Virus record (IMG/VR): IMGVR_UViG_3300034280_000269
Span: 1-26,894 of that record
From: a virus
Length of the DNA stretch: 26,894 nucleotides
Direction: 5' to 3' (one strand)
Under the pieces are notes generated by a model, which was given only the letters and a program-made list of their open reading frames with translations, made no database searches and had not been told where the DNA came from. Below, one piece after another: positions 13,387 through 23,634 of the stretch; position 1 is the stretch's first letter; every line of letters begins with the position of its first letter. The position numbers and the translations under genes are program-made.

Positions 13387-13664
13387 CACCATTAGTTGAG
13401 TTTGCCTGCCAGTTTGGAGTTGAATCCATCCCTGACAGACTGCTCAACGATGATGTCATGTATATCCTTCAGTTAGAAGCCGACAAGATCAACGCTTACA
13501 AAGAAGCGAGGGTCAGGTCGGCTTCAGGTCCACTCACAGCAGATGGTATTTACAATCTTGTCCTTCGGGCAACAGGTGACTTGTATCAAGCAGAATTGAT
13601 GAAAGCCAAATTCATCAACGAGGAAAGAAAACATGCCGCGCGAAGTTCTGGTCAACATCAATGA
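13383..13664 (+). CDS. Downstream frame of the frameshift pair (gpT-like)
   Basis: A 93-residue frame. Its only upstream start is TTG 13383, which overlaps the preceding TGA and has no ribosome site, so translation by -1 frameshifting from the gene before is more likely than independent initiation. It contains LVEFACQFGVESI, ADKINAYKEARVRSASGPL and YNLVLRATGDLYQAELMKAKF. It is helical and soluble, with no recognised enzymatic motif. The last 32 bases overlap the portal gene. Confidence 0.6.
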   Translation: MTPLVEFACQFGVESIPDRLLNDDVMYILQLEADKINAYKEARVRSASGPLTADGIYNLVLRATGDLYQAELMKAKFINEERKHAARSSGQHQ

Positions 13665-14931
13665 CCTCTTAAACACCCAAGTCACTGACTACGTTCCCGG
13701 CACCTACTGGGCACAATGGGGCTACACCCGCAACCGTCCCCTCTTCAACACTTACACCATCCGGGAGATGTTGATTGACCCCCGAGTTCGCTTTGGACTC
13801 TGGATCATCAAAGGTCACCTGATGGCAAAGGCCAAGTTCAAGGTTGAATCCGACACCCCAGATGTTCAAGAGTTTGTCCAAGACCAGATCAAACGATTCT
13901 GGAAGCAGGGTGTCACCCAAGCTCTCAAGGCAATCGAATGGGGCTACAGCGGCGCAGAGGTCCAATACGAGCAGGACGAAAAGACTGGCCGAGTGGTCTA
14001 TGCCAAGCTCAATGACTTCGAGCCCCCATCAGTCAAGATTGTCACCAACAAGGGTGAACGGGTTGGTCTGTTGGTATCCAACTATCAAACGATCAACATG
14101 GCTCCCGGCAAAGCAATCTACCTTGGTGGTCCCAAGGCATTCCACCATGTCCATTGGAAGGAATACAACAAGCACTACGGTCTGTCCCGACTCTATGCTG
14201 CCCACGTTCCATGGAATGAAATCTGGTCTGAAGGTGGCTACCGGGATGTTCGTCGGTTGTGGTTCTACAAGAACGCATTTGAAGGTGGCATCATGCGACA
14301 CCCTCAAGGAACCGTCAAACTCCCCAGTGGCCAGGTTCGCTCCTACCAAGACATCGCTCAGGAGATGATTGAGAAGAAGCGAGCTGGAGCTGTTTTGACT
14401 CTCCCCTCCGACACCGATCAACGTGGCAACCCGCGCTGGGATTATGAGCCAGCCAAAGGCAACACCATCCCGGCTGGTCTGTTTGAATACGGTCAGTCCC
14501 TTCGAGTCGAGATCCTTGAAGCCTTGGGCATTCCTCCCGAGGTCATCGAGTCATCCGGCTCCCAAGGGTTCGGCTCCTCATCCGGCAGAAGTATCCCCGA
14601 GGATGCTTTCTACTCGGTCCTCTTCGAGCTGCTGCTGAACCTGACCAACGATGTTGTGGAACAGATCGTTCGTCCGTTGGTTCAAATCAACGCACAACTG
14701 GGCCTGCTCCCCTACGACACCTTCGATGTGATGCCCTTCCCCCTCAATTCGATGCCGGGCAATGGGATGACCGATGGGGAGCTGTTCCCGACCGATGAAA
14801 TGCTCAACCCCATGGCAGCAATGGGCCAGCAACCGGGTCAACCGGGACAGCCCGGTACGCCCCCCGTTGAAGGGGATGAAGATGAGGTTCCAGCTGATGA
14901 GGCTACCCCTGACCTTGGATTGGTGGCTTAA
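13633..14931 (+). CDS. Phage portal protein (Mu gp29 / DUF935-like)
   Basis: A 432-residue protein from ATG 13633, with GAGGAAAG just upstream. Portal signatures are RFGLWIIKGHLM near the start, IEWGYSGAEVQYE (about 101-113), FHHVHWKEYNKHYGLSRLY (about 170-188) and WFYKNAFEGGIM (about 210-221). The part ILEALGIPPEVIESSGSQGF (about 294-313), followed by a helical stretch ending in VRPLVQIN, matches the gp29-like type. The C-terminus is a Pro/Gln-rich disordered tail. The portal forms the dodecameric DNA gateway of the capsid. No terminase or capsid gene is adjacent, which is unusual. Confidence 0.85.
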   Translation: MPREVLVNINDLLNTQVTDYVPGTYWAQWGYTRNRPLFNTYTIREMLIDPRVRFGLWIIKGHLMAKAKFKVESDTPDVQEFVQDQIKRFWKQGVTQALKAIEWGYSGAEVQYEQDEKTGRVVYAKLNDFEPPSVKIVTNKGERVGLLVSNYQTINMAPGKAIYLGGPKAFHHVHWKEYNKHYGLSRLYAAHVPWNEIWSEGGYRDVRRLWFYKNAFEGGIMRHPQGTVKLPSGQVRSYQDIAQEMIEKKRAGAVLTLPSDTDQRGNPRWDYEPAKGNTIPAGLFEYGQSLRVEILEALGIPPEVIESSGSQGFGSSSGRSIPEDAFYSVLFELLLNLTNDVVEQIVRPLVQINAQLGLLPYDTFDVMPFPLNSMPGNGMTDGELFPTDEMLNPMAAMGQQPGQPGQPGTPPVEGDEDEVPADEATPDLGLVA

Positions 14932-15391: not shown

Positions 15392-18094
15392 ATGGCATCA
15401 GCTTTCATCTCTCTCGGTGGTGTTTACTGCGTCATCCCCGATGACAACCTTCTTCTCTTCCTCCAGAAAAACGGCATCCGGCTTGGGTTCAAGTTGGTTG
15501 GTGGGAGGATGTCAGGTTACGGTCATGTCCTGCTGCTGAAGGATGACCTCGATGGGTTGGTCAACCGTGACAACCTTGAATTGAAAATGTCAGATGGTGA
15601 ACGCTCAATCACCATCAACAACCTGATGATTGTGGAAGTGACCGCTTCCAATCCAATCAAGAATCAGAATCAGCTTTATGTTGCCAAGATCGCTGATCAG
15701 CGTCATGTTGCTTTTCAGCATGAAACCAGGTTGACGTTCGACCCGTTTCCTCCTCACGAAAAGTACGACCAGTCCGGTCGAGCAACATCTTGGCTTTCCG
15801 CGCTGGAAGGCTATTGGAACAACAGCAACATCAATTCAGTATGGGCTTCTGTTGAAAAGTCTGAAGCTGATTTCCCGAGCATCATGCTGCGGGATGTTGC
15901 AACCCAGACAACCAATTCTGATTGGAACATGCTGAATGATGTCTTGCAGCTTTCATCACATCAGCTTTACAAGCGTCATGGCTCGGGCAACACATTCAGA
16001 ATTGTTCGTAATGGTTATATCAATCAAGATAATCTGGATTTGTTCGACGAGCATGAAGGCAGGCTGGTTCAACGTAAGTTAAACACGGACATCTACGCTC
16101 CCTATCTTCCAGAAGAATTGCATGTGAAGTATCGGCAATTCAATTCATCATTCTGGAATGATCCGATTGTCTGCACTGAGGCATATTCGGGCTCAGAGAC
16201 ATTCAAACCGGGGATGTCAAAGGATCTGAATGTTTACAATATCTATGACCCGGATCATTCTCGCGCCAGTGATTACCTTATCGAGCTGACAATCCTGGCC
16301 TGCATTCTCAGCAAACTTTACTACGACACCTTCACTGATCTTCATCGCCGTGATGCTGTCTACTTTGGAATCATTCCATTCGAGCCTGATGCCTCTTGCC
16401 ACAGCATCGAGTTCTTCCATGGTTTCATCGGTGGTGAAGCCGGGATGTTCACTGAAGTCAAATCTCTTGACATGTCAAACTACCAGTTCCCGGAGTTTGA
16501 CCGCGAGATTGAAATTTTCATGGAGCAGTTTGACTCGGCAACGACGACAACGACATCTCAGGTTCTTGGTTCACCGCAAGTTTGCGAAGGTGAATGTAAG
16601 TGGCAATGGGATGAAGCATTGCTGCAATGGATTCAGGTTGATGAGATTGGTTACGGTTGTGCAAATGTTGTTTCATCAACATCATCAACCAGTTCAACAT
16701 CAACCCCGAACCCACTGTTTGCTGATTGCTATACCACTCACAGTTCAACGACATCAACCACAACATCTCCAGCTTGTGATTGCTTGCATCCTGATTTCTG
16801 TGGTGAGAATGATGGTGACATCACGATTACTTTCTGTACCAACAATCCTGATGACAACGAACCACCATACTGCTCAACCACGACATGTGATTGCAACACA
16901 ACAACGACCAAGCCATTCATCAGTTGCGCATCAAGACCTGGATGTGATTACGCTGCCTATTACGACTGGTCAAACACTTCATGCAACCCACCAATTGTTT
17001 GGTATCTGACCAATTGGCAATGTGGTGTTGGTGTTGACAACAGAACTCCTGATTACTGTCAGCAAGATTACAACTATTGCTGCTCTGACACTGACCAAGA
17101 CAATGATTGCTTGGTATGTGGGTGTAATGGTTCTTTGCCATCAGAACCCGAGTGTGGTGATACATACCATCTTGGTTGCGCTGGTGACTGCGTGAATGTT
17201 TCGTCCTGCTGCCAGGGTACATGTGTTTGGCTGTGGGTGCCCTGTGAAAATGGTCTTATTCTAATTAGCGGTGATGACAATTGGGGTGGAGAGTTTTGTT
17301 GGTACTTAAAATGTGAGGAATGTTCATCATTCTCTTGTGACCAGAATGACACTGGTGTATGCCGGTGTGTAACTCCTCCATCAGTTGAGACACCTGACCC
17401 ATGCAAGATTTACTACACAACCTGTGAAGGTGATCGTGGGTGTGAACCATGTGAGGATTGCTATACCACAACAACCACACCACCATGGCGATGTGACTAC
17501 TGCATTCGTCGTTCGTCAGATGGATCATTCTGGGATGAGATCATCGTTGATGAATGCGACTCACCGTGTTACTGCGGCATTCCTTCCAGAGATCCTGTTG
17601 GAGGTGGTGATACAGCTAGGGTTGGTTGTCTTGAGTCAACAACTTCAACCAGCACCACAACGTCATCCACAACCACCTCAACAACTGTTGCACCAACTGG
17701 TGCATGTTGTGAATGCCCTGCTGATGGGTGTACCGTTCTCACTGAAGCAAGTTGCACACTTTGCGGTGGAATCTGGCAGGGAGCCGGGACTGTTTGTGAC
17801 GAGTGTTATGGCGATTGTACGGGAACCTGTGTTTACAGTTGCGTGAACAATCAATATGTGCTAGTATCCTCTGACTGTGACGCTGGTGCATTGATTCAGT
17901 GCGAATGCCCTGCTGGGATTGCTGGAACGTACTGTGATGACCCGGCTACACATCCTTGTGCTAGACCGTCAACAACCACCAGCACAACACCAGCACCGGC
18001 GACTACAACAACTACCACAACCACAACAACAACCACTACTACAACAACAACTTCTTCTACAACGACTTCCACGACTAACATTGTTCCAGGATAA
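15392..18094 (+). CDS. 900-residue mucin-like Cys-rich, Thr-rich virion surface protein
   Basis: ATG 15392 follows AAGGA at good spacing. Residues 1 to about 382 form a globular domain with few Cys, which I do not recognise; it may be the virion anchor. From about 383 on, Cys-dense modules alternate with Thr/Ser linkers: SSTSSTSSTST (about 428-438), HSSTTSTTTS (about 450-459), STTSTSTTTSSTTTSTT (about 749-765) and a C-terminal tract at 860-895 with 17 Thr in a row. The module at about 769-805 (GACCECPADGC...CTLCGGIWQGAG) resembles Cys-rich modules of secreted planctomycete proteins. The many Cys suggest disulphides outside the cell, and the Thr/Ser linkers look like O-glycosylation targets. 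The next genes encode sugar-modifying enzymes. No signal peptide is seen, which fits a virion protein. Confidence 0.75.
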   Translation: MASAFISLGGVYCVIPDDNLLLFLQKNGIRLGFKLVGGRMSGYGHVLLLKDDLDGLVNRDNLELKMSDGERSITINNLMIVEVTASNPIKNQNQLYVAKIADQRHVAFQHETRLTFDPFPPHEKYDQSGRATSWLSALEGYWNNSNINSVWASVEKSEADFPSIMLRDVATQTTNSDWNMLNDVLQLSSHQLYKRHGSGNTFRIVRNGYINQDNLDLFDEHEGRLVQRKLNTDIYAPYLPEELHVKYRQFNSSFWNDPIVCTEAYSGSETFKPGMSKDLNVYNIYDPDHSRASDYLIELTILACILSKLYYDTFTDLHRRDAVYFGIIPFEPDASCHSIEFFHGFIGGEAGMFTEVKSLDMSNYQFPEFDREIEIFMEQFDSATTTTTSQVLGSPQVCEGECKWQWDEALLQWIQVDEIGYGCANVVSSTSSTSSTSTPNPLFADCYTTHSSTTSTTTSPACDCLHPDFCGENDGDITITFCTNNPDDNEPPYCSTTTCDCNTTTTKPFISCASRPGCDYAAYYDWSNTSCNPPIVWYLTNWQCGVGVDNRTPDYCQQDYNYCCSDTDQDNDCLVCGCNGSLPSEPECGDTYHLGCAGDCVNVSSCCQGTCVWLWVPCENGLILISGDDNWGGEFCWYLKCEECSSFSCDQNDTGVCRCVTPPSVETPDPCKIYYTTCEGDRGCEPCEDCYTTTTTPPWRCDYCIRRSSDGSFWDEIIVDECDSPCYCGIPSRDPVGGGDTARVGCLESTTSTSTTTSSTTTSTTVAPTGACCECPADGCTVLTEASCTLCGGIWQGAGTVCDECYGDCTGTCVYSCVNNQYVLVSSDCDAGALIQCECPAGIAGTYCDDPATHPCARPSTTTSTTPAPATTTTTTTTTTTTTTTTTSSTTTSTTNIVPG
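17969..18076 (+). repeat. Low-complexity ACN-triplet tract (poly-Thr)
   Basis: An imperfect ACA/ACC/ACT triplet run near the 3' end of the mucin-like gene, encoding residues 860-895. It includes 17 consecutive Thr codons that use ACA, ACC and ACT in irregular order. The mixed synonymous codons suggest selection for the Thr sequence rather than simple recent slippage. Confidence 0.8.
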
Positions 18095-18099
18095 GCCCG

Positions 18100-20139
18100 A
18101 TGAAAAATATCCTCACTGTTGGGATGGCTGTGCATGATGACTTCAAGATGCTCTGGGCTACAGTCCAAGCATTGAAACTTGAAATCCTCAAGTTCAATCT
18201 CCCGGTTGAAATTCTTGTTGTTGACAACGCACCAAACACTGTTGATGGTCGAAAGACCAAGACGTTCATTGAGAACTACGGTGGACCGACTCGTTGCAGG
18301 TATGCTGTTTGCCCTGCTGAATTGTTTGGGACAACACAACCACGACAGACAGTTTTTGAATTGTCTGATACCGAGTGGACCATGTGCATTGATTCGCACA
18401 TTCTGCTTTGGCCGGGTGCATTGCAGCAATTGGTTCAGTGGTTGCAAACAGCTCAGTCAGAACCGTTTGTGGATGACTTGCTGAGTGGCCCAATCATGAT
18501 GGATGAACTCCAGACATCAGCAACACATTTCAATCTGATCTGGGATGCTGAGATGTGGGGTAAGTGGGGAACCGCTTGGTGGGACCGTGTGAGCATGGGT
18601 TACTTCTCGGTTATCCAGCATCCAATCGAAGATGCGATGTGCAAGTTCATTTCTCTTTCTCCAGAGATCACTGATTACAAATTTCCTGCTGATGCAATGC
18701 CAAGAAAGGTGATGTATTACGGGCATGAAAGCCATCTTAATCAGCTTGGGTTCAGGACTGCTGTTGATATGGGCTACCCATTTGAGATCCCGGCAATGGG
18801 TCTTGGTTTGTTCTTGGCACGAACAAAGTCATGGCTCGGGTTTAACAAGAACATGCGAGGATTTGGTGGTGAGGAAGGTTACATTCACACCAAGTACCGG
18901 AATGCAGGGCGACGTTGCATTTGCCTCCCGTGGTTGCGGTGGGTTCACAAGTTCAACGGTCCCGAGGACATCAACTATTCCGTTGATCGTCGCAACAAGG
19001 TTCGGAACTATGTTCTTGGATTCAATGAAGTTGGCTTGCCATTGAAGCCAGTGTTCGATCACTTCATTGCCACCAAACTTCTTCCACAGCAAATTTGGGA
19101 CAGCATCATTATCGACCCTGTTGGTTACAAGGCTGTCAAAACAATTTCACCGAAGGAATCTCTGGAGAAGAAGGGGGCAACACAAGCCAAACTTGAGATG
19201 CCCAATCTCAGTCATTGTTCAATCCAAGACCTGTTTGAATACTTCAAGCAGGAGCCACGGGATTTGGACAAGCATCTTGAAACTCTAAAGACTGTCGCTG
19301 AACAGAGCAGGACTGTTGTTGAATTGACCCACCGGAGGGAATCAAGCGTTGCTTTTCTTGCGGGTGGTCCTGACTTGCTGGTTTCTTACCAGTCAGAGAA
19401 TGACCACGTAGTTGATGCTCTCAGTGGTGTCTTGATGAGAACATCGTTTCCATCAACTGTGTCTTGGACCAAGGTTGGTGTGTTGAACCATACCAATCTG
19501 GACTTCAGCAACTTGCCTGAAAAGTTTGGTGCGCTGTTCATTGACATTGATGGGTTGTCATCGTCACTTGAAAAGTACCTGAATAAACTACACAAGTCAG
19601 TCACAAGGTTCATTGTCATCCATGACACATTTATCTACGGTGACATTGATGCTTCAGCCTCAAAGGGTTTGAACTATGTCATCCGCGCTTTCTGTGAGGA
19701 CAACCCGCAATGGGAACCCGTGTTCTACACATCCAACCAATATGGGATGACCGTTCTTGGGTGCCAGGATCAGGATCGGCCTAAGAAGAAAATCATGGCT
19801 TGGAAAGTCGGCAAAGGTCCTGGGACTGAGCTGAAGAAGATGAACGCTGAGTTGGGCATCAAGCCTGCTGAGAATTGCTCCTGCAATCGTCTTGCTGCTG
19901 AGATGGATTGGCTTGGTGTTGAAGGATGCAAAAGCGAACGGGACAAGTTTGTTCTCGGGCTCAAGCAGAACTCTTTGCAATACAAATGGACTGACTTGAT
20001 GATGGCTGGTATCCGTTCGGCAACCTGCTCATTCGTAACCAAGATCAATCCTTTGGATGTGTATGGTTCGATGGTGGATGAGGCTATCAGAAGGGCTGAA
20101 GAAAATGAGCGACAAGGATCTGGTTCTACAGCGGTGTAA
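18100..20139 (+). CDS. Multidomain protein glycosyltransferase (DxH type) fusion
   Basis: A 679-residue protein starting five bases after the mucin-like gene. Residues 1 to about 300 are a GT-A glycosyltransferase: VGMAVHDDFKMLWATV (about 7-22), VEILVVDNAPN (36-46), a nucleotide-sugar/metal motif IDSH (97-100) and FGGEEGYIHTKYRNAG (about 255-270), followed by CLPWLRWVHKF. A DxH plus GGEx plus VH set is what polypeptide GalNAc-transferases and Skp1-type GlcNAc-transferases show, and both glycosylate protein Ser, Thr or hydroxyproline. Residues about 400-560 look like a Rossmann, methyltransferase-like or second nucleotide-binding domain (GALFIDIDGLSSSL, TRFIVIHDTF). Residues about 572-625 (KGPGTELKKMNAELGI...CSCN...MDWLG) form a small Cys-containing domain often attached to phage and planctomycete glycosyltransferases. 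The likely acceptor is the upstream Thr-rich protein. Confidence 0.75.
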   Translation: MKNILTVGMAVHDDFKMLWATVQALKLEILKFNLPVEILVVDNAPNTVDGRKTKTFIENYGGPTRCRYAVCPAELFGTTQPRQTVFELSDTEWTMCIDSHILLWPGALQQLVQWLQTAQSEPFVDDLLSGPIMMDELQTSATHFNLIWDAEMWGKWGTAWWDRVSMGYFSVIQHPIEDAMCKFISLSPEITDYKFPADAMPRKVMYYGHESHLNQLGFRTAVDMGYPFEIPAMGLGLFLARTKSWLGFNKNMRGFGGEEGYIHTKYRNAGRRCICLPWLRWVHKFNGPEDINYSVDRRNKVRNYVLGFNEVGLPLKPVFDHFIATKLLPQQIWDSIIIDPVGYKAVKTISPKESLEKKGATQAKLEMPNLSHCSIQDLFEYFKQEPRDLDKHLETLKTVAEQSRTVVELTHRRESSVAFLAGGPDLLVSYQSENDHVVDALSGVLMRTSFPSTVSWTKVGVLNHTNLDFSNLPEKFGALFIDIDGLSSSLEKYLNKLHKSVTRFIVIHDTFIYGDIDASASKGLNYVIRAFCEDNPQWEPVFYTSNQYGMTVLGCQDQDRPKKKIMAWKVGKGPGTELKKMNAELGIKPAENCSCNRLAAEMDWLGVEGCKSERDKFVLGLKQNSLQYKWTDLMMAGIRSATCSFVTKINPLDVYGSMVDEAIRRAEENERQGSGSTAV

Positions 20140-20704
20140 GAACATCGGTGGGTGGATGTACGATGAGGAACTTCTTTGGCTGAACAAGACAGCTAATGAA
20201 TGTTCTCTGGTGGTTGAGATTGGCGTGTGGCAAGGTAAAAGCACAACTGCACTTGCATTGGGCTTGCCACAAAATGGCAGGTTGTTCTGCATTGATTCAT
20301 GGCAAGGTTCAGATGATGAACTCCATGCAGCGCATTCAATCATGCAGACCACTGAAGGTCAGAAGTCAGTGTTCCTCAACGCAATGGACAACTTGTTTGA
20401 GTTCATTGTGATGGGCAAGGTTGTTCCAATCTGCATGAAGTCGATTGAAGCATGTCACCTGTTTCAAGACACGTTTGTTGATGACATTGACTTTGTGTTC
20501 ATCGACGGTTCGCATGATTACTTGAACGTCAAGCAGGACATTGCAACTTGGTTCCCGATGACCCATTCAAACAGCATCATCGCTGGTCATGATTACGGTT
20601 CATTCGAGGGAGTCACCAAAGCTGTCAACGAAGAGTTTGGCGGCAAGGTCAAGCGTGGTCCCGGTAGCATTTGGTACGTTGATCGCTCGGAACTCCCATC
20701 ATGA
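20105..20704 (+). CDS. Class I SAM-dependent methyltransferase
   Basis: A 199-residue protein. ATG 20105 is preferred over 20057 because the upstream extension is basic and would overlap the previous gene more deeply; 20105 overlaps it by 35 bases. Motif I is VVEIGVWQGKSTTALALGL (about 36-54), with LFCIDSWQGS (60-69) for motif II and IDFVFIDGSHDYLNVKQDI (about 128-146) for the acidic/His region, followed by IIAGHDY. This matches the Methyltransf_24-like small-molecule or sugar O-methyltransferase group. The stop overlaps the next start (ATGA). I infer that it methylates the glycan made by the flanking transferases. Confidence 0.82.
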   Translation: MSDKDLVLQRCKNIGGWMYDEELLWLNKTANECSLVVEIGVWQGKSTTALALGLPQNGRLFCIDSWQGSDDELHAAHSIMQTTEGQKSVFLNAMDNLFEFIVMGKVVPICMKSIEACHLFQDTFVDDIDFVFIDGSHDYLNVKQDIATWFPMTHSNSIIAGHDYGSFEGVTKAVNEEFGGKVKRGPGSIWYVDRSELPS

Positions 20705-21435
20705 AAATCTCCTGTCTGCTTCCAACTTACAACAGGTTTCCACATGAAGGTCATCTTGTCTGTGAGGCTGTCAATTCATTCCTGAATCAAGGCTACAAAG
20801 ACAAGGAACTGATCGTCTGCAACGATACACCAGGTCAGGAGATTTGGTTTAATCATCCATCAGTCAAGATACTCAACGTACCGGAGCGATTTGAAACTCT
20901 GACCCACAAATTGAGGTTCATGATCGCTCACGCTGATGGTGATGCGTTCTGTCGTTGGGATGACGATGACATTTCTCTCCCTTGGCGGCTTGCTCTTTCT
21001 TCCAGAAACATGGAAGGAAAGGATGAATGGAGATGTGAAAAGCATTTCTATTCTGAGAACAATCACATCAAAAAGATAACCATGTACCCCGGCAACTCGC
21101 ACAACATGAGTATCTGGTCAAGGACTGTTCTTGCAAAGTTTGGTAATGGTTACCCGATGCACTCCCAAGTGATGGGTGACGAGGACCAGACATTTAATCG
21201 TGCATTGGTCCAAATGGGCTACCCGATTAACGGTGAAGAGATTGACCCAAAGATGATTTTCTACATCTATCGTTGGGGAGTTTCATCCAACCATTTGTCA
21301 GCCAACATGAACAAGTGGAAGCAGATTGGTCAGGCTCCAGTTGTCAAAGGTTCGTTCAAGATTGAACCTCAATGGCAGCTCAATTATGTCAAGCAGATGT
21401 CAGACTATCTTCGAGCTGTTGGGTATAGCTTGTGA
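20701..21435 (+). CDS. Family 2 glycosyltransferase
   Basis: A 244-residue GT-A enzyme. MKISCLLPTYNRFPHEGHLV (1-20) is the classic nucleotide-sugar binding start, followed by VNSFLNQGYKDKELIVCND (about 24-42) and the acidic CRWDDDDISLPWR (84-96), the DxD-equivalent metal site. MGDEDQTFNRALVQMG (about 158-173) is a probable catalytic base region. It has no transmembrane helix, so it acts in the cytoplasm. The gene is coupled to the methyltransferase (ATGA) and to the next gene (GTGA). It probably adds a second sugar to the modified protein; the donor sugar cannot be read from the sequence. Confidence 0.85.
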   Translation: MKISCLLPTYNRFPHEGHLVCEAVNSFLNQGYKDKELIVCNDTPGQEIWFNHPSVKILNVPERFETLTHKLRFMIAHADGDAFCRWDDDDISLPWRLALSSRNMEGKDEWRCEKHFYSENNHIKKITMYPGNSHNMSIWSRTVLAKFGNGYPMHSQVMGDEDQTFNRALVQMGYPINGEEIDPKMIFYIYRWGVSSNHLSANMNKWKQIGQAPVVKGSFKIEPQWQLNYVKQMSDYLRAVGYSL

Positions 21436-21677
21436 ACATCATTGAGTTGAATGTGATTCAACGCGCTCCCTGCGATTACAGGGGAGAACCAAAACGACGA
21501 CAGGCTGGATGTTGTGGGTTCCAGCCTGTCGTCACGGTTTTCAATTGTGAGAAGTTTGGCGAAGCTACCGTTATTCCGTTCGAGGATGAACAGCGGGTGA
21601 TGCTTTGCTCAAACTGTTGCTTCAAGCGGAAGGTTGAGTACCAACCACCATCACAACCCGATAGTCCGCAAACGTAG
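21432..21677 (+). CDS. Small Cys-rich (zinc-ribbon-like) protein
   Basis: An 81-residue protein from GTG 21432, which overlaps the previous stop (GTGA). Cys at about 14, 27, 28, 39, 59, 62 and 63 in CDYRG, AGCCG, VFNCEKFGE and CSNCC form a zinc-binding-like pattern. Similar small CxYRG...C...CxxC proteins accompany glycosyltransferase genes in phage and planctomycete contigs, but the function is unknown. The last 56 bases overlap the 3' end of a convergent - strand gene. A strong hairpin lies inside the gene at 21496-21533. Confidence 0.65.
   Translation: MNIIELNVIQRAPCDYRGEPKRRQAGCCGFQPVVTVFNCEKFGEATVIPFEDEQRVMLCSNCCFKRKVEYQPPSQPDSPQT
21496..21533. repeat. 13-bp perfect inverted repeat inside a coding region
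   Basis: GACGACAGGCTGG (21496-21508) and CCAGCCTGTCGTC (21521-21533) are perfect complements around a 12-base loop, followed three bases later by TTTT (21537-21540 in ACGGTTTT). As + strand RNA this resembles an intrinsic terminator or attenuator about 60 bases into the Cys-rich gene. It may limit transcription beyond the glycosylation cassette. Confidence 0.65.
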
Positions 21678-21928: not shown

Positions 21929-23479
21929 TTAGTTGAACTCGGGTTCCATTTCCTTTGCTTCGCTGACCAGAATCAGTCGATGCTTGCTGCGAGTCTCAGC
22001 AACGTAGATCAGGTTCAATTCCTGCTGCTTCTCCCAAGGCTTCTTTGCCATCGGGTGAGGCATCTTCTCGCGTCCAAGGATGAACACGTTGTCCGACTCC
22101 AAACCCTTTGCCTTGTGAACTGTTGACAGTGTAACAGACTTGTCAGCGGTCAGCTTGCTGCTGAACAGGCTGTCAATCCGATCAACCAGCTTGGTCACCG
22201 TATCAAGCCCACCAGTCAGGTAGACGAGCGATTGGTACTTCTCTGCCAGAAGTTGCAACTGCTTGTCAGGGAAGGTGTAGGCTTTGTTGATGCGAGCCTC
22301 TTCTTCACCACGCCAAGTCTTGAGGGTTTCCACCAAGGTCTTGATCTTGTCGTCAGTGTCCAACTTCTTGACCAAGCTGATGAGGTTTGCCCCGTAGTCA
22401 CGACCAAGAATCCGGCAGGGTGTGCCATTGCGAATCAGGCGGAAAGCTGCTGCACAAAGGTTGGCATTGACCCGGCTGATAACCATGTCACCAATCTTGG
22501 CTTGGGCTGTCAGGTCATCAGCTTCACTGTGTTCGATGATACCTTCCTCTGCGATGTCTGCTGCCTTGATGTCAGCAACATACTTGTTGACGTTGACGAC
22601 ATGAGACTTGGGGCAACGCCAAGTGGTTGTCAGCGTCAACTTCTTGACACCAACCTTGGTTGCACTCAGGTATTCTTCCATGCGTTCCATTGACTTGACA
22701 TCAGCTCCACGAAACCCGTAGATGCTCTGGAATGAGTCACCGATCAGAATCAAACGCTTTGCCATCTTCAGGACCATCTGTTGCTGTGAGCAATTCAAAT
22801 CCTGGCACTCATCCACGATCATCAGGTCAAACTTGTCGTAGTTCAATTCCATGACATTGGGCAACCAGATCATGTCATCGAAGCTGATCCAGTTCACCTT
22901 GCCCTTGACCAGCTTGAGTGACTTCTCCATCACTTGCTTGACCAAGTTGAACACCTGTGGCTTGTTGCCGTTGACATCAACATCATTCTCGTTGATGACC
23001 ATCTCCAACTCTTCGTCAGACCAACCAATCAGGTTGTTCTTGAGGATGGCAACGATCTTCTCAACCACCATGCTATCCCGGTAATCTTCCTTGGACATGC
23101 TGGTTCCCTTTGCATAGCCAAGCAGGTCACGAACCATGTAGCGAGTGGTTTCACTCCCGGCTTGAATCCGATAACCGTTCTTGGCGAGGATGCTGTAGCC
23201 CAAGCCATGCAGGGTCTTGGCAGTCACACCGCTTGGAACCTTCTGCTCCAGCTCCAATTGGATCGACTTGTTGAATGCGACGAAGATGATTTCATCAGGC
23301 TTGCCACCTGCTGCCATCTCGTCCCAGATTGCCTGTTGTTCATCAGTGCCTTTGAACTTGGGCTTGTTGCCGAACATCAGGTTCAGACCGGCAATCATGG
23401 TGCTGGTCTTGCCAGTCCCAGCGCGGGCTTCAACGATAATGTGCGACTGAGTGTTCTTCTTCTTGATCTTGTACGCCAT
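21929..23479 (-). CDS. UvrD/Rep-type superfamily 1 DNA helicase
   Basis: A 516-residue protein from ATG 23479, chosen because a GGAG ribosome site lies upstream on this strand; extension to 23614 would add 45 residues unlike the family. All SF1 motifs are visible: Walker A ARAGTGKTS (18-26), FVAFNKS (66-72), TLHGLGYSIL (89-98), Walker B DECQDLN (223-229), IGDSFQSIYGFRGAD (246-260), TTTWRCP (284-290), STVHKAKGLESDN (452-464) and IYVAETRSKHRLILV (491-505). It should unwind DNA 3' to 5' using ATP in replication, repair or recombination. It is shorter than UvrD, as expected for compact phage versions. It is transcribed away from the recombination operon. Confidence 0.92.
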   Translation of the reverse strand: MAYKIKKKNTQSHIIVEARAGTGKTSTMIAGLNLMFGNKPKFKGTDEQQAIWDEMAAGGKPDEIIFVAFNKSIQLELEQKVPSGVTAKTLHGLGYSILAKNGYRIQAGSETTRYMVRDLLGYAKGTSMSKEDYRDSMVVEKIVAILKNNLIGWSDEELEMVINENDVDVNGNKPQVFNLVKQVMEKSLKLVKGKVNWISFDDMIWLPNVMELNYDKFDLMIVDECQDLNCSQQQMVLKMAKRLILIGDSFQSIYGFRGADVKSMERMEEYLSATKVGVKKLTLTTTWRCPKSHVVNVNKYVADIKAADIAEEGIIEHSEADDLTAQAKIGDMVISRVNANLCAAAFRLIRNGTPCRILGRDYGANLISLVKKLDTDDKIKTLVETLKTWRGEEEARINKAYTFPDKQLQLLAEKYQSLVYLTGGLDTVTKLVDRIDSLFSSKLTADKSVTLSTVHKAKGLESDNVFILGREKMPHPMAKKPWEKQQELNLIYVAETRSKHRLILVSEAKEMEPEFN

Positions 23480-23541
23480 GACTATTCTCCAGAAAGGAAA
23501 CTCGAATTGAAACTTGCAGCGTTTGCTGCTCACAGGAGACG

Positions 23542-23569
23542 ATTCTACAGTTGATTGATATACATACAA
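23542..23569 (-). promoter_or_regulatory. Weak candidate promoter for the helicase gene
   Basis: On the - strand TTGTAT (23569-23564) and TAGAAT (23547-23542, 5 of 6 matches to the -10 consensus) are 16 bases apart, with the helicase start about 60 bases downstream. The -35 match is poor. Confidence 0.3.
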
Positions 23570-23634
23570 GCCTAATCGGTAGGATTCTGGAAAAAACTTC
23601 AAAAAATTTTCCAAACCCCCAGTTTCTCAAGGAA

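Follow-up and report, generated by a model that had tools for sequence, protein, structure and literature searches.

Genes of the locus

The analysed DNA (the window) is a stretch of 26,894 nucleotides that corresponds to positions 1 to 26,894 of the IMG/VR virus record IMGVR_UViG_3300034280_000269. The proposed glycosylation cassette adjoins the structural gene module, which is represented by the portal protein gene. The following features were assigned:

13633..14931, + strand: portal protein (Mu type), Pfam PF06074 (E 2e-8), phrog_113
15392..18094, + strand: candidate mucin-like substrate protein, 900 aa, with an N-terminal domain followed by Cys-rich modules and Ser/Thr tracts
16673..16705, + strand: Ser/Thr tract, residues 428-438 (SSTSSTSSTST)
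17636..17686, + strand: Ser/Thr tract, residues 749-765 (STTSTSTTTSSTTTSTT)
18002..18076, + strand: C-terminal Ser/Thr tract, residues 871-895, starting with Thr17; proposed cluster of O-glycosylation sites
18100..20139, + strand: glycosyltransferase GT1, 679 aa, in which a GT27-like GT-A domain is joined to a methyltransferase-like domain of class I; the tail contains Cys
18100..19125, + strand: GT-A catalytic domain of GT1, residues 1-342, structural match to GalNAc-T2 (6nqt)
18391..18399, + strand: DxH motif D98-S-H100, invariant, opposite DSH of GalNAc-T10
18865..18876, + strand: GGEE motif G256-E259, invariant, opposite GGE of GalNAc-T10 and T7
18940..18954, + strand: WxH-x-F motif W281-V-H283-K-F285, opposite the R-V-G-H segment of GalNAc-T10 and T7
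19222..19779, + strand: methyltransferase-like C-terminal domain of GT1, residues about 375-560, assigned by profile
20057..20704, + strand: free methyltransferase (Methyltransf_24, PF13578, E 1e-19), start alternatively at ATG 20105
20701..21435, + strand: GT2, glycosyltransferase of 244 aa (PF00535, E 1.9e-8), proposed to extend the glycan
21432..21677, + strand: Cys-containing ORF of 81 aa, possibly the last gene of the cassette, no function assigned

The initial annotation described a Cys-rich protein of 900 residues with Thr/Ser linkers and 17 consecutive Thr near its C-terminus, and the composition of the ORF 15392-18094 (106 Thr, 79 Ser and 65 Cys) agrees with this. The N-terminal domain of the 15392 protein extends from residue 1 to about 383, and the Cys-rich modules beyond it are split by Ser/Thr tracts. 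Runs of Ser/Thr occupy residues 384-389, 428-438, 451-459, 495-498, 503-506, 692-696, 749-765, 860-866 and 871-895, with Thr17 at exactly residues 871-887. In having dense Ser/Thr tracts between Cys-rich domains, the protein meets the definition of mucin-like. Thr17 is encoded by mixed codons (ACA nine times, ACT five times and ACC three times) which form no DNA triplet repeat, and selection therefore seems to act on the residue and not on a DNA repeat. The Pfam, PHROG and NCBIfam searches gave no match to the 15392 protein. Among its homologues, L003 shares 73% identity with it in the N-terminal part and L007 39%. The model of the N-terminal domain, based on three homologues only, had a pLDDT of 31 and no conclusion was drawn from it. 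Judging from the position of its gene, the protein is likely to be part of the virion, but its incorporation has not been shown.

The stop codon of the 15392 ORF is followed after 5 nt by ATG 18100 of GT1, just as had been reported. The presence of a methyltransferase and a second glycosyltransferase downstream was confirmed by the Pfam matches. The 4-base overlaps proposed for these genes were found only in part: the end of the free methyltransferase gene (20704) overlaps the start of GT2 (20701) by 4 nt, whereas its own start shares 35 nt (ATG 20105) or 83 nt (ATG 20057) with GT1. Another 4-nt overlap joins GT2 with the 81-aa ORF at 21432. The free methyltransferase gene is missing from the closest relative, L003.

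GT1 and the polypeptide GalNAc-transferases

The DxH (IDSH), GGEE and WVH motifs which were recognized at the outset correspond to D98-S-H100, G256-E259 and W281-V-H283. Within a set of 80 diverse GT-A domains, no variation occurs at D98, at H100, in the two Gly and two Glu of GGEE or at W281; H283 and the adjoining F285 are conserved in at least 90%. With regard to a peptide-binding acceptor cleft as in GT27, the conserved F285 is a pointer from sequence alone. A profile built from 80 GT1 sequences matched GalNAc-T10 (E 6.4e-7), GalNAc-T7 (E 2.2e-4) and GalNAc-T4 (E 6.5e-4), and DSH and GGE of the two families line up in these alignments.

Comparison with the GT27 fold had been named beforehand as a test able to refute the hypothesis. 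The best 50 Foldseek matches listed for the GT1 model were all polypeptide GalNAc-transferases (best E 2.5e-12). VIA-align superposed the GT-A domain on GalNAc-T2 (6nqt) with Z 24.0 and an rmsd of 3.0 over 259 residues, the next-best family being chondroitin polymerase (Z 20.4). Foldseek, the second aligner and the profile thus all favour GT27. The GT-A fold is common to many glycosyltransferases, and fewer than 4 Z units separate GT27 from the next family. The motif layout had been ascribed to GalNAc- and Skp1-type transferases alike; the fold and the profile speak for the former type, whereas PF11397 (Skp1-type) was matched neither by GT1 at E 0.1 nor by 34 relatives at E 0.01 in Pfam searches, and the Skp1-type identity was dropped.

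The C-terminal domain of GT1 matched the O-methyltransferases 4pca and 4oa5 in the profile comparison (E 4e-4), and a Pfam match to Methyltransf_24 was obtained for 2 of 34 family members. Short members of the family lack this methyltransferase-like C-terminus. A profile match of the domain to SufS (E 0.02) was short and implausible and was set aside.

Polypeptide GalNAc-transferases (CAZy family GT27) carry out mucin-type O-glycosylation in animals and Toxoplasma. GT1 resembles them in its GT-A fold, for which they are the best structural match (Z 24), in the same order of DxH, GGE and the downstream metal-binding His, and in its Thr/Ser-rich candidate substrate. In contrast to them, it is encoded by a phage beside its own candidate substrate, shares only about 15% identity and carries a fused methyltransferase-like domain instead of the ricin-B lectin domain (no Pfam match to the ricin-type, beta-trefoil lectin was found in GT1 or 34 relatives). 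We propose that GT1 is an initiating protein O-glycosyltransferase; this activity is inferred, without biochemical data.

Pairing with Ser/Thr-rich proteins in viruses and bacteria

A survey of relatives for co-occurrence of the two genes, suggested by the initial annotation, gave strong support to the pairing. The gene directly upstream of GT1 encodes a Ser/Thr run of at least 7 residues in 38 of 57 viral clusters, compared with 1/44 downstream genes and 11/346 background genes (3%). On the upstream side (Fisher p 3e-29 and 3e-12), such runs are about 20 times as frequent as in neighbours from the same contigs. These p values overstate independence because the clusters share ancestry and the genes were called by a crude method. 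The linkage is kept across a deep tree, and its recurrence in distant relatives (p 3e-29) places it beyond chance. In their N-terminal parts, the partners form 24 largely unrelated BLAST groups, and the Ser/Thr tracts recur among them. About a third of the viral clusters have no Ser/Thr-rich immediate neighbour; in some of them it lies two to three genes away. Downstream of GT1, the GT2 family was the commonest (16/55); Methyltransf_24 was present in 10/55 and Sulfotransfer_2 in 5/55. A match to GT29 (sialyltransferase) in L011 was discounted as a local match of 33 residues.

The same pairing occurs in dozens of unrelated uncultured phages, with relatives present as prophages of Planctomycetota; a GT27-like enzyme and a dedicated mucin-like protein travel together across many uncultured phages. 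No relative of four GT1 members was detectable by tblastn among cultured phages in a collection of 50,697 records. In bacteria the pairing takes a different form: homologues of GT1 adjoin TAT-signal peptides with Ser/Thr tails (e.g. in Oricola, L325), which contain few or no Cys. We found no description of the pairing in the literature on phage O-glycosylation, GT27 in phages, Thr-rich phage proteins and PqqD/HprK/TAT systems, most subscription journals and preprints being outside the scope of the search.

In the converse test, only 3 of 53 genes following those for poly-Thr proteins in an unselected sample belonged to the GT1 family. Poly-Thr alone therefore does not predict GT1, and a role of GT1 as the general partner of poly-Thr proteins is ruled out. 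This test led to phrog_4417, a family of unknown function from cultured phages that infect lactic acid bacteria, enterococci and staphylococci. Its genes come after those for major tail or capsid proteins which end in poly-Thr. In Lactococcus phage 1706, the phrog_4417 gene is orf14 and the major tail protein ends with VTTTTTTTTTTHHD. The assignment of phrog_4417 as a glycosyltransferase was made by eye and from the genomic context only; a search against the PDB for kinship with a solved glycosyltransferase found no sequence relative. Like GT1, phrog_4417 is encoded after poly-Thr-tailed virion proteins, but no sequence relation between the two was detected, and in several phages it is the major tail or capsid protein that carries the Thr tail.

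Proposed function of the cassette

GT1 might target a non-protein acceptor (host polysaccharide, LPS, teichoic acid or phage DNA), its co-transcription with the Thr-rich gene being incidental. The targets of phage glycosyltransferases are often phage DNA or glycans of the host surface (PMC12619734). GT1 also gave weak profile matches to teichoic-acid enzymes such as TagF, although these cover only the general nucleotide-binding half, whereas the best fold matches and the longest-spanning sequence matches are peptide-modifying enzymes. Moreover, the linkage is confined to the upstream side and to Ser/Thr-rich proteins (38/57 against 1/44 downstream), persists with very different partners and is seen again beside TAT peptides in bacteria, which makes such an acceptor unlikely.

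The 65 Cys residues of the 15392 protein, the presence of at least 20 Cys in 47 of 55 partners and a weak profile match of GT1 to SunS (E 0.17-0.2) could suggest that the partner is modified at Cys (S-glycosylation, as by SunS on sublancin) or at other residues of the Cys-rich modules and not on the Thr tracts. This seems even less probable, as the Ser/Thr tract is the feature shared across contexts, including the Ser/Thr-rich partners in L019 (61% S/T, 2 Cys) and L026 (no Cys) and the Cys-poor bacterial TAT partners. The least credible explanation is that replication slippage produced the Thr tracts as neutral spacers of low complexity, next to an unrelated glycosyltransferase: poly-Thr proteins are indeed common in viral contigs among the matches listed, mostly without GT1 after them, but the mixed Thr17 codons, the upstream enrichment over same-contig neighbours and the pairing of a second enzyme family with poly-Thr proteins contradict it.

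We therefore read the locus as a phage mucin-type O-glycosylation cassette for a dedicated virion protein, with a probability of about 0.77; the sugar, the site and the location in the virion are inferred. The original suggestion that the phage glycosylates its own protein is thus supported by the fold and the co-occurrence, while the modification itself remains an inference. The particular roles that had been put forward (adsorption, immune masking, binding to mucus-like matrices) received no support. No biochemical or mass-spectrometric data stand behind this reading. In the infected cell, GT1 would move the first sugar, which need not be GalNAc, from a nucleotide-sugar donor onto Thr/Ser in the tracts of the adjacent protein, with D98, H100 and H283 predicted to hold the metal. 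This sugar may be capped or otherwise modified by the fused and the free methyltransferase, and GT2 would lengthen the glycan. If the N-terminal domain anchors the 15392 protein to the particle (probably to the tail or neck), the virion would display rigid, glycosylated, disulfide-braced stalks.

GtfA/GtfB are the enzymes of the serine-rich repeat glycoproteins. In Gram-positive bacteria with accessory Sec systems, these glycoproteins are O-glycosylated in the cell before export (PMC7948813, PMC6973325); the proteins are likewise Ser/Thr-rich, but they are bacterial cell-wall adhesins, not phage proteins, and are modified by other enzymes. In mycobacteriophages, glycans were reported on virion proteins as well, namely at the C-termini of the capsid and tail-tube proteins (Freeman et al. 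2023, as cited in PMC12619734), whereas a separate mucin-like protein is proposed as the substrate here.

Few systems are known in which a phage encodes the glycosylation of its virion. Since the pairing recurs in unrelated phages and bacteria, many phages are likely to have their own dedicated mucin-like proteins and to coat them with sugars. If this is true, the cassette provides a concrete enzyme-substrate pair, explains a part of the puzzling poly-Thr proteins in viral metagenomes and hints at the way in which phage particles acquire a coat of sugars. Somewhat better than even, in our view, are the chances that there is a prokaryotic mucin-type lineage, in which GT27-like enzymes of uncultured tailed phages and diverse bacteria act on Ser/Thr tags of dedicated partner proteins and poly-Thr is read by at least two unrelated enzyme families, GT1 and phrog_4417. 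The parallel phrog_4417 system allows the idea to be tested at once in dairy phages. If it holds, the origin of mucin-type glycosylation would be reopened: this modification would not be a eukaryotic invention alone, and in phage biology poly-Thr would serve as a portable tag for glycosylation.

The glycosyltransferase cassette and its GT27-like enzyme

The window, a complete IMG/VR record of 26,894 bases, is probably a genome fragment. Its tailed-phage structural module ends with a Mu-type portal, after which the cassette follows:

13633-14931, Mu-type portal
15392-18094, 900-aa Ser/Thr-Cys-rich protein
18100-20139, GT1
20057-20704, free methyltransferase (MT)
20701-21435, GT2

The 4-nt overlaps ascribed to the genes after GT1 in the initial annotation exist between MT and GT2 but not between GT1 and MT, which overlap by 35 or 83 nt. 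An 81-aa ORF which comes after GT2 overlaps it by 4 nt. The closest relative, L003, has no free methyltransferase and its GT1 overlaps GT2 directly (4 nt); the gene was inserted or lost inside an otherwise conserved cassette. A UvrD/Rep-type helicase gene (21929-23614, minus strand) lies directly after the cassette and is kept in L003.

GT1 matched PF00535 weakly (E 2.8e-5). When its structure model (built from 34 relatives; mean pLDDT 84) was compared with the PDB using Foldseek, all of the best 50 listed matches were polypeptide GalNAc-transferases (best E 2.5e-12). VIA-align gave GalNAc-T2 (Z 24.0, rmsd 3.0, 259 residues), the next families being chondroitin polymerase (20.4), a fucosyltransferase (19.4) and B4GALNT1 (18.8). 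As evidence independent of the model, we used a profile built from the sequences of 80 GT-A domains, which matched GalNAc-T10 (E 6.4e-7), T7 (2.2e-4), T4 (6.5e-4) and Toxoplasma GalNAc-T3 (0.007) in long alignments including the DSH and GGE motifs, whereas matches to other glycosyltransferases were confined to the nucleotide-binding half. D98, H100, G256, G257, E258, E259 and W281 are invariant among the 80 domains, and H283 and F285 are at least 90% conserved. Towards its C-terminus, GT1 resembles the O-methyltransferases 4pca and 4oa5 (profile E 4e-4), and Methyltransf_24 was matched in two GT1 relatives. In contrast to GT27 enzymes, GT1 lacks a ricin lectin domain; by domain make-up it is therefore GT27-like and not a GT27 member. 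One relative in an alignment of the family (A2) also matched Radical SAM and SPASM domains, possibly a fusion of peptide-modifying enzymes.

Linkage of GT1 to Ser/Thr-rich genes

The relatives were collected by the glycosyltransferase sequence alone, so their neighbours are not an artefact of selection. After dereplication at 60% identity, 57 viral clusters had an upstream gene on the same strand. In 38 of them this gene carried a Ser/Thr run of at least 7, compared with 1/44 downstream genes and 11/346 other genes of the same contigs (Fisher p 3e-29 and 3e-12). These p values are only guides, since the clusters have ancestors in common and genes were called with a simple tool. Such a gene was found within four genes of GT1 in 49/60 cases. 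The Ser/Thr-partner label is spread across the whole phage side of the GT-A tree (80 domains) and changes 14 times, versus 26.8 for shuffles.

The 900-aa protein contains 106 Thr, 79 Ser and 65 Cys. It has nine stretches of at least 4 consecutive Ser/Thr residues, and the last of these (25 residues) starts with Thr17, whose mixed codons (ACA 9, ACT 5, ACC 3) indicate that the residue is kept and not a DNA repeat. The N-terminal parts of 51 partners fall into 24 BLAST groups (the largest of 22), whereas the Ser/Thr tracts recur, as do Cys modules in most cases, and some partners are almost pure Ser/Thr (e.g. L019, 61% Ser/Thr and 2 Cys), which is an argument for a tie between the enzyme and the tract. 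Intein-like (Hint) segments were seen by eye in two Ser/Thr-Cys-rich partners:

L012:5597-7957, CFIAGSQVLMSDGS...VHNC
L024:5434-7977, CFLPNSLVLMENGS...FHNC

The cassette comes after the tape-measure region in the relatives L002 and L262 and after the portal in the window, which places the partner among the genes for virion proteins. At its end L262 carries host regulatory genes, L252 has an integrase and both lie in Planctomycetota assemblies; the relatives are therefore prophages there, and Planctomycetota are inferred to be the host of the window's phage.

Bacterial relatives and phrog_4417

Bacterial members of the GT1 family form a separate clade. In Desulfobulbaceae, Hyphomicrobiales, Oricola, Rhodococcus and Saprospiraceae, their genes adjoin those of small TAT-signal proteins (LPxxWTKPxVxSVVxPAHA) that have a Ser/Thr tail:

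L275:4231-4905, TAT-signal peptide with Ser/Thr-rich tail beside a GT1 homologue
L297, L325, L269, L304, L316, the same pairing

A motif scan was positive in 15/49 loci, including L285, where the scan frame looks spurious and a genuine TAT peptide was seen separately. Upstream genes on the genome side were Ser/Thr-rich in 7/31 cases versus 2/227, the 31 including planctomycete prophage loci. An HPr-kinase-like domain is fused to the glycosyltransferase in at least one locus, and PqqD-like proteins were noticed by eye nearby. Bacteria provide a second context where a Ser/Thr tail goes together with the enzyme, and these loci apparently represent an undescribed bacterial glycopeptide system.

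In an unselected sample of poly-Thr proteins, the following gene was GT1 in 3/53 cases and phrog_4417 in about ten others, among the matches listed. The latter family (about 300 aa, DxD-like motif) is of unknown function:

L073:3898-4815, phrog_4417
L332:3504-4412, phrog_4417
L337:1601-2452, phrog_4417
others, phrog_4417

In cultured phages, this gene comes after poly-Thr ORFs or after virion proteins whose C-terminal tails are poly-Thr. It follows the major tail protein in Lactococcus phage 1706 and in Enterococcus phage phiFL1A, where that protein has the C-terminus TTTTTSTTTTTTSSTTTTTTT. It also follows poly-Thr ORFs in Chryseobacterium phage MA9V-3 and Lactobacillus phage Semele, and those adjoining capsid/tail proteins in iLp84, vB-SscS-F1 and TPWB06 (whose capsid/tail proteins carry poly-Thr ends). 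Its neighbours in LP65 and 521B are Thr-rich without long runs; among the cultured phages examined, bIL285, VPE25 and 9183 had no Thr-rich neighbour. We infer that phrog_4417 is a glycosyltransferase and consider that it may be a second family of protein O-glycosyltransferases in phages.

Proposed glycosylation of the partner

Virion glycosylation is already known in mycobacteriophages, as reported in PMC12619734. In the literature searched, the coverage of which was incomplete, no paper was found to describe a GT27-like enzyme as the partner of a mucin-like phage protein.

Domains, motifs, fold similarity and linkage were observed for the cassette. By inference, an unidentified sugar would be transferred onto Thr/Ser in the cytoplasm before assembly, the glycan may be extended by GT2 and capped by methylation, and the partner, presumably anchored by its N-terminal domain, would be displayed on the virion. 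The 55 genes downstream of GT1 include GT2-family genes (16), Methyltransf_24 (10) and sulfotransferases (5), the kinds of gene that extending and capping a glycan would call for:

L201:7896-8660, sulfotransferase-family gene downstream of GT1

The presence of sulfotransferase genes in several phages suggests that some phage glycans are sulfated. It may be speculated that glycans on the partner would benefit the phage, for example by protection, adhesion to a matrix or slowed adsorption.
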